Assembly (NCBI GenBank): GCA_029941135.1
Contig: JAPYRI010000007.1
Location: 1-58,791, forward strand
Direction of reading: 5' to 3'
Origin: Alphaproteobacteria bacterium
Lineage (GTDB): Bacteria; Pseudomonadota; Alphaproteobacteria; JAPYRI01
DNA: 58,791 bases
Part shown: positions 27,940 through 32,290 of the stretch, piece by piece
Numbering within the stretch: the stretch's first letter is position 1
Layout of the letters: every line of letters begins with the position of its first letter
Position numbers and translations under genes: made by a program
The notes under the pieces: model-generated
Database searches by the model: none
What the model saw: the letters and a program-made list of their open reading frames with translations, nothing else
What the model was told of the DNA's origin: nothing

Positions 27940-28168
27940 ATGACCGAGAATTTAAAATTTGAGGCGCCGGGTCCGGGCTCGTGGAAAACCGAGCCCGTTC
28001 ACTGCGGCTGACCCTTTGCCACCTTCTGCCAAGATGATTTTTCCGTGGCCATCGGGAATGGGATGGCGCGTGGCTTTGAGCGCTGTGGCGGCACCGTCGA
28101 AATTATCGAATTTAAGCCGGTGAACCATGTCGTGTACATGAGCGTGAAGCCTGTGGGCGCGCCGCCTA
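27940..28168 (+). pseudogene. 5' fragment of a PEP-synthase/PEP-utilising-enzyme-like gene with in-frame TGA (28009-28011)
   Basis: MTENLKFEAPGPGSWKTEPVH...*PFATFCQ...VNHVVYMSVKPVGAPP resembles the N-terminus FEAPGPGSWELDATHFPRPVTRF...; homology ends abruptly. Confidence 0.6.
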
Positions 28169-29302
28169 ATTGCCAGCAGGTAATTCGCTTCGTGAGTGAT
28201 CATCCTCCCTATTCCTGGGTCGCCGGGGCTCAAGCGTTTGCCGATCTCGATTTGCTCCAATGCGGCCTCGAAATCTCTGCTTAGTGCCAAGGTCTGAGAG
28301 TGAAGGAGTCGTATTTGTGTGTCGCTTGGATTTAGCCGCACGGCTTCTGCAGTTTTCTTCAACCCGAGCTCAACATTTTGACGGTAGGCGTGGGCTACGC
28401 CCAGAATTCCGTGGGCGAACGGAAACGAGCGATCTATCGACAATGCCTTGGTGGCGTGTTCAGCAGCTTTGTCGAGGGCCTCGGCGGGGCCGAGGCCTAG
28501 TGCCTTACCATCAAGTCGGGCGAAATTAGAAAAAGCAAGACCGGCAAGAATGGCATGCGCCTGGGTAAACTGAGGGTCCAATTCAACAGCTTTTTCGGCC
28601 AGTGCATACCCTTCTTTGAGGCTGTCAGCGAATGTTTCGTTGCCGAGCGACAGAGCGCGTAGAACGCAGTCCCAGGCGGTCATATTCTCGGTCGGCTTAC
28701 TATGAATCCGGCGGGTGTCGGCGTTGTCGATCTCGGGCGCGAGGGCGCCGACGATAGTCGATGTAATCTCGTCCTGAAGCTCAAACATATCGGACAAATC
28801 CCGATCGTATCGGTCAGCCCACACGTGACGGCCCTCCGCATCAATCAACTGTCCGGTAATGCGGATTTTGTCACCGGACTTTCGAACGCTGCCTTCCAGG
28901 ATGTAGCCCGCGCCGAGCTCCTTTGCAAATTCTCGCAGATCCAACGACTTGCCCTTGTAGGCAAAGGTTGAGTTGCGGGCGATTACCGGGAAGATTCGGA
29001 ACGATTGCAGGCTGGTGAGAATATCTTCGGTGATGCCGTCAGCGAAATAGTCCTGGTCCGGTCTTCGCTCATATTGTCAACGGCAGCACCGCGATCGCCG
29101 GGCGACCGCCAAAACCGGGCACCGGCTGGGACACGTCGACCGTCGGCACTTGGCCGTGCGAAAGAACATCTTTGGTAACGCGGGCGGTCCCTTTGAGCGC
29201 CCCACGCATGGCGGCGCCGACAATGCTCAGCACCACGACGCCTGCGGCAATCGCGCTCATGACAGTTTCGTTCGCTTGCAGCCAAGCGAGAATTTCAGAC
29301 AA
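28168..29302 (-). pseudogene. TPR/TolB-like membrane protein (adenylate-cyclase-associated type) with two frameshifts and a 3' truncation
   Basis: PAIAVLPLT / NMSEDRT / DYFADGITEDILTSLQSFRIFPVIARNSTFAYKGKSLDLREFAKELGAGYILEGSVRKSG lie in three frames; C-terminus ends in unrelated sequence near 28168. Confidence 0.75.
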
Positions 29303-31565: not shown

Positions 31566-32126
31566 CTATTCCGCCGCAGACTTGTGAATAGGACAGGTGC
31601 CGCCAATCTCTAAGCCGAGCGCATGGATAAAGCGCCCGTAGCCGACGAAAGTTATGATCCGCCAGCCCAAGTCAATGATTTCAGCTTCACTGAAATGTGC
31701 CCGCAGTTTGTCGAACAGGTTTTCCGACGCCGACTTGTGGTCGCCCGCCAAAACGTCCGCATAGTGGATGGCGGCTTTTTCGCGCGGGGTGAGTACCGTG
31801 CTGGCTTCGTAATCTGCGATTTCGCTAATCAGGTCTTCGGTCACACCTTGTTGCTCTGCCAGAGCAAACCGGGCGCTTAGTCATAGGTTGCAATCGTTCC
31901 GTTGCGCGACCCGTAAGCGCGCCAGTTCGGTTAATCGCATGTCGACCGAACCCCGGGTTTCGGTCACCAGGGGAAAATAAAACTCGATAAATTTACGGAA
32001 GGTATCGGGCGCGTGCGCGAACACCTGTACGAACCCAGACCCGCCGAGTTCCTTGTCGTACGCCCGCATGATCTCGGTCAGATCTTCGGGCATGTCTTCG
32101 ATGGGGACATTGCTCACACGTGCCAT
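31566..32126 (-). CDS. Carboxymuconolactone decarboxylase/AhpD-like protein with in-frame TGA at 31881-31883 (candidate selenocysteine, CxxU)
   Basis: Both halves share one frame: ...LARLRVAQRNDCNL[TGA]LSARFALAEQQGVTEDLISEIADYE...; no other lesion; 81 + U + 104 aa. Confidence 0.75.
31851..31867 (-). promoter_or_regulatory. Candidate bacterial SECIS hairpin: UUGCUCU-GGC-AGAGCAA
   Basis: Perfect 7-bp stem with triloop GGC; loop begins 20 nt after the TGA on the coding strand. Confidence 0.55.
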
Positions 32127-32290
32127 GGCATTCGTCCTTTGCTGAGCGGATTTTTAAACTCTGCCGAATTCTCGTCCTCTATGGAGGGCTGGTCAAGCGG
32201 CAATGGAAGTGAGATTAGTGCTAGATCACGGATGGGTTGCCGGACCATGATGAGGGCAAGCGCATTATTACAGCAAGGGAGCAAGACACC

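Follow-up and report, generated by a model that had tools for sequence, protein, structure and literature searches.

A 2005 survey of the Sargasso Sea (PMC1088965) described AhpD-like selenoproteins with a CxxU motif (COG2128) and selenoproteins with a CMD domain. The GOS survey contains 299 sequences of AhpD-like 1 and 70 of AhpD-like 2 (PMC2398784), and AhpD-like/CMD selenoproteins are also found in a 2026 catalogue (PMC13188914). The locus described here adds one more CxxU AhpD-like/CMD selenoprotein to this kind, known since 2005. An earlier reading of the same DNA, called here the original prediction, had likewise mentioned such proteins from marine metagenomes.

The gene was found on the minus strand of a 58,791-nucleotide stretch of DNA (the window), from contig C7 of a 3.02-Mb assembly with 178 contigs and 95% completeness. 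Translation of positions 32126..31566 gives one frame of 187 codons, whose sole internal stop is a TGA at 31883..31881. Read through this TGA and ended by TAG, the frame (31566..32126) encodes a protein of 186 aa that matches the Pfam CMD domain PF02627 at 49.7 bits (gathering cut-off 23, E 3.6e-13). The TGA is codon 82 and occupies the second redox position of the CMD/AhpD domain, giving the motif C79-N-L-U82. The codon for Cys79, TGC, lies at 31890..31892, and this residue is invariant in alignment A1. A probable Shine-Dalgarno sequence, AAAGGA, stands at 32135..32140, upstream of the ATG at 32126. Standard ORF calling cuts the gene into pieces of 81 aa and 92 aa. The single frame, the split annotation and the replacement of the second redox Cys had all been stated in the original prediction, and translation, ORF calling and the homologues, which have TGA or Cys at that codon, agree with it.

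In several respects the protein resembles the AhpD-like selenoprotein (COG2128/YciW, TIGR01926; PMC1088965, PMC2398784, PMC13188914). Both have the AhpD/CMD fold, a CxxU motif with Sec in second position and a SECIS element within the coding region, and in both cases Cys homologues are common. Compared by profile and motif, the protein is also like the CMD domain-containing selenoproteins of the same surveys (PF02627, CxxU). Unlike the TIGR01926 peroxidase-related enzyme, it scores 56.7 bits against a cut-off of 81.8, and it thus represents a diverged subfamily. Its best NCBIfam match by E-value (1.3e-20) is NF053654, the YciW-related (seleno)protein, and the Rokubacteria and C48 homologues described below match this model best as well. 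The 73.9 bits of the window protein fall far short of the equivalog cut-off of 310. Of the curated NCBI models for (seleno)proteins that were tested, none gives the protein a score above its cut-off. The low scores with TIGR01926 and NF053654 would explain why automatic annotation split the gene.

An AlphaFold model of the protein, with Sec modelled as Cys, is all-helical (pLDDT 78, pTM 0.75). Foldseek matches it with probability 1.00 to the AhpD-family structures 7xw1, 2gmy and 2prr, and the fold is of the AhpD helical type. The all-helical AhpD fold is shared with the Cys enzyme PA0269 (PMC3141380). The structure of another Cys enzyme, M. tuberculosis AhpD, is a weak fold match to the model (Foldseek rank 42); Glu67, Cys79 and Sec82 have the spacing of its Glu118, Cys130 and Cys133. 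Unlike both of these enzymes, the window protein has Sec in place of the second Cys. The debrominase Bmp8 (PDB 6ohi, 6ohj) is a profile match with a similar fold (TM 0.75), but it is 17-18% identical, and nothing in the window protein points to dehalogenase activity.

In AhpD proper, the second Cys is followed at a distance of four residues by a His, which is part of a Glu-Cys-Cys-His proton relay. In M. tuberculosis AhpD this residue is His137, and its equivalent is invariant in the family set of PMC3141380. The window protein instead has Arg86 at this position. Arg86 is also present in the closest homologues, Cys orthologues included, and the change from His to Arg therefore does not follow Sec. 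At neutral pH selenocysteine is in its ionised form, and a proton relay could therefore be less needed, although the Cys orthologues show that this is not the full explanation. Since Arg86 replaces the relay His, the protein may not share the peroxidase activity of AhpD.

Eleven relatives of the protein were found in one scan of genome contigs. Two of them, L033 (CGLU) and L034 (CHLU), are 62-65% identical to it and have TGA at the Sec82 codon, as do five Rokubacteria homologues (L035-L039, motif C-x-Y-U). The two other closest relatives, L031 and L032 (CRLC), have TGC at codon 82. Across the homologues, then, an in-frame UGA is aligned with a conserved redox Cys. Every genome with the TGA (G145-G151), together with that of the window, has a selB above cut-off; no selB above cut-off was found in G143 and G144, the genomes of the close Cys orthologues, and it is present in 4 of 7 genomes with more distant Cys homologues. 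By a hand calculation, the 12 selB-positive genomes out of 17 would include all of the 8 with the TGA with a probability of ~0.02, although the five Rokubacteria are not independent. In a 20-row tree with moderate support, the Cys pair branches next to the Sec lineages, and Sec and Cys have interchanged two or three times overall.

Further CMD genes occur in the same genome. It has 15 CMD matches, and in four of these, one being the AhpD-like gene of the window, a TGA lies in frame at CxxU. The other three are predicted selenoprotein genes at C48:8881-9420 (plus strand; CHFU, 39% identity to the window gene), C6:56665-57165 (minus strand; CHYU) and C141:175-420 (plus strand; CFYU). By name, the C141 motif CFYUT fits NF041238 (AhpD_rel_CFYUT), a known family that PMC13188914 lists.

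A hairpin with the sequence UUGCUCU-GGC-AGAGCAA is found downstream of the UGA (31851..31867, minus strand). The bSECIS rule describes a loop of 3-9 nt with a G in its first two positions, located 16-37 nt after the UGA, and a stem of 4-16 bp. The hairpin lies within these ranges, with its GGC loop of 3 nt, an offset of 20 and a stem of 7 bp, exactly as originally described. On its own, the contiguous 17-nt hairpin has an energy of -6.6 kcal/mol, slightly weaker than the MFE of at most -7.5 kcal/mol in a recent model (PMC13188914). The full local fold, in which a lower stem is added to the core (31843..31876, minus strand), reaches -15.0 kcal/mol as a single-sequence fold.

Hairpins that pass a loose SECIS rule are common. 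With E<=-6.5, such a hairpin follows 10% of the codons of eight genes nearby, and 25% of synonymous recodings contain one. The Cys orthologue L032 would also pass, with a different hairpin, and the loose rule alone is therefore weak evidence. By comparison, 0.13% of synonymous recodings produce a hairpin of equal quality (stem of at least 7, loop of 3-5 starting with GG, E<=-6.5), and not one of 2649 neighbouring codons is followed by such a hairpin.

The hairpin also covaries among homologues. The C48 gene has the same arrangement as the window gene (7 bp, GGC, +20), and that of C6 has 8 bp and the loop GGUCG at +21. When the window gene, C48 and four Rokubacteria sequences are compared, the 7 core pairs form in 100% of cells, and 5 of the 7 pairs show compensatory changes with both sides altered. 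In shuffled controls, the observed values were attained 0 to 1 times in 500, and when the register is slid, pairing is 29-38%. With L033 and L034 included, pairing is 94.6%; the best fold of these two has a GGUC loop that lies closer to the UGA by one codon. In the Cys orthologues L031 and L032, the hairpin is not kept in the register of the window gene.

The codons after the TGA are under purifying selection as strong as that on the codons before it. In comparisons with four orthologues, pN after and before the TGA is 0.198/0.259, 0.229/0.300, 0.233/0.260 and 0.237/0.238, with synonymous sites close to saturation in both halves. The corresponding dN values are 0.285 vs 0.286 for L034 and 0.280 vs 0.319 for L033. 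Non-synonymous change is thus equal or lower after the TGA, which would not be expected if a nonsense mutation had truncated the gene.

The genome has selA, selB, selC (tRNA-Sec) and selD, the set expected for a bacterial selenoprotein. In a profile search, selB was found on contig C29 with 420 bits (cut-off 242). It is adjoined by tRNA-Sec (68 bits), which ARAGORN reports as tRNA-SeC with the anticodon tca. A SelA-like ORF lies beside selB and overlaps it upstream. Divergent from this selA-selB-tRNA-Sec cluster is an ORF for an Ndh-SelD fusion with CxxC (G000:C29:341-2614, L023), a type described in PMC2398784. Both selA and selD were identified from ORF translations and not by profile search. 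With selA, selB, tRNA-Sec(UCA) and Ndh-SelD in the same genome, UGA is therefore decodable as Sec. TGA also ends neighbouring genes of the window. The SelW family has no match in the genome.

If the gene were decaying, the TGA could be a nonsense mutation that fell on the redox Cys codon by chance, and at least one further gene of the window (27952-29302, minus strand) does look frameshifted. This explanation is highly improbable in view of the same TGA in independent lineages, the purifying selection that continues past it, the covarying hairpin and the complete Sec machinery, and the conservation of the TGA in relatives refutes it for practical purposes. The original prediction had likewise preferred a selenoprotein to a nonsense mutation. 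The checks that it proposed, on the homologous codon, on selection after the TGA and on selA, selB, selD and tRNA-Sec(UCA) in the host, came out in its favour, and covariation supports its SECIS-like hairpin.

Less probable still is an error of sequencing or assembly that turned TGC or TGT into TGA. The assembly is fragmented into its many contigs, but MAGs from other groups also have TGA at this codon, and the three further CMD paralogues of the genome have it at the homologous position; independent TGA codons in other genomes make a base-calling error unlikely. An equally small chance is left for a UGA that is a real stop between two separate proteins, as the two annotated ORFs would have it, or that encodes another residue (e.g. 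Trp in a recoded code). Against these possibilities, homologues with Cys at codon 82 form one chain, window genes that end in TGA show it to be a normal stop, and tRNA-Sec and selB are present in the genome. Phage and defence readings were rejected; PHROGs and PADLOC gave no matches.

The locus is thus almost certainly a single AhpD/CMD-fold redox selenoprotein, with Sec82 predicted from its sequence features to be inserted at the UGA via SelB and the hairpin. The hairpin, close behind the UGA on its 3' side, would recruit SelB with Sec-tRNA-Sec, and the recruited complex would insert selenocysteine at residue 82, an insertion that we infer here. The Cys79-x-x-Sec82 pair would sit at the N-terminus of the active-site helix. 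The analogy with AhpD suggests that the Sec82 selenolate attacks an oxidised substrate (candidates are peroxides, disulfides and similar electrophiles) and that Cys79 then resolves Sec82 as a selenenyl-sulfide. Because Arg86 replaces His137, in the Cys orthologues too, peroxidase or disulfide/selenenyl-sulfide reductase activity is presumed by this analogy.

More tentatively, and with considerable doubt, the protein and its homologues may form an unrecognised subfamily of AhpD-like selenoproteins. Such a subfamily would combine Sec in second position, Arg for the relay His, and switching between Sec and Cys together with selB, and in the genome of the window several of the selenoproteins would have the CMD fold. 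If so, it may not share the chemistry of AhpD peroxidases. For the genome studied here, two mis-annotated fragments become one predicted functional enzyme, and at least four CMD-fold selenoproteins are predicted in all. Since the subfamily scores below every curated model tested, its genes have probably been split or truncated in the annotation of other genomes too. The close pairs of Sec and Cys orthologues, with and without selB, form a natural set in which Sec and Cys can be compared in the same active site.

A few minor observations were made along the way. Four genomes of family f102 (G101, G219, G309 and G389), from the same class, have several CMD genes each, some with one in-frame TGA and some close together, and an expansion of CMD selenoproteins in this family is possible. 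The MAG that carries L034, a rare AhpD-like selenoprotein, bears the title Klebsiella pneumoniae, probably because a metagenome bin was mislabelled. No conservation of the gene neighbourhood was found: a DUF1272 gene, the immediate downstream neighbour of the AhpD-like gene, matches nothing in the regions that flank the homologues. A scan of viral contigs found no relative. The frameshifted gene mentioned above, of the TPR/cyclase-associated type, reads IAVLPL, then DQDYFADGITEDILTSLQ and ILEGSVRKSGDKIRITGQLIDAEG; it appears to be split near 29070-29090, either as a decayed gene or by a sequencing error.
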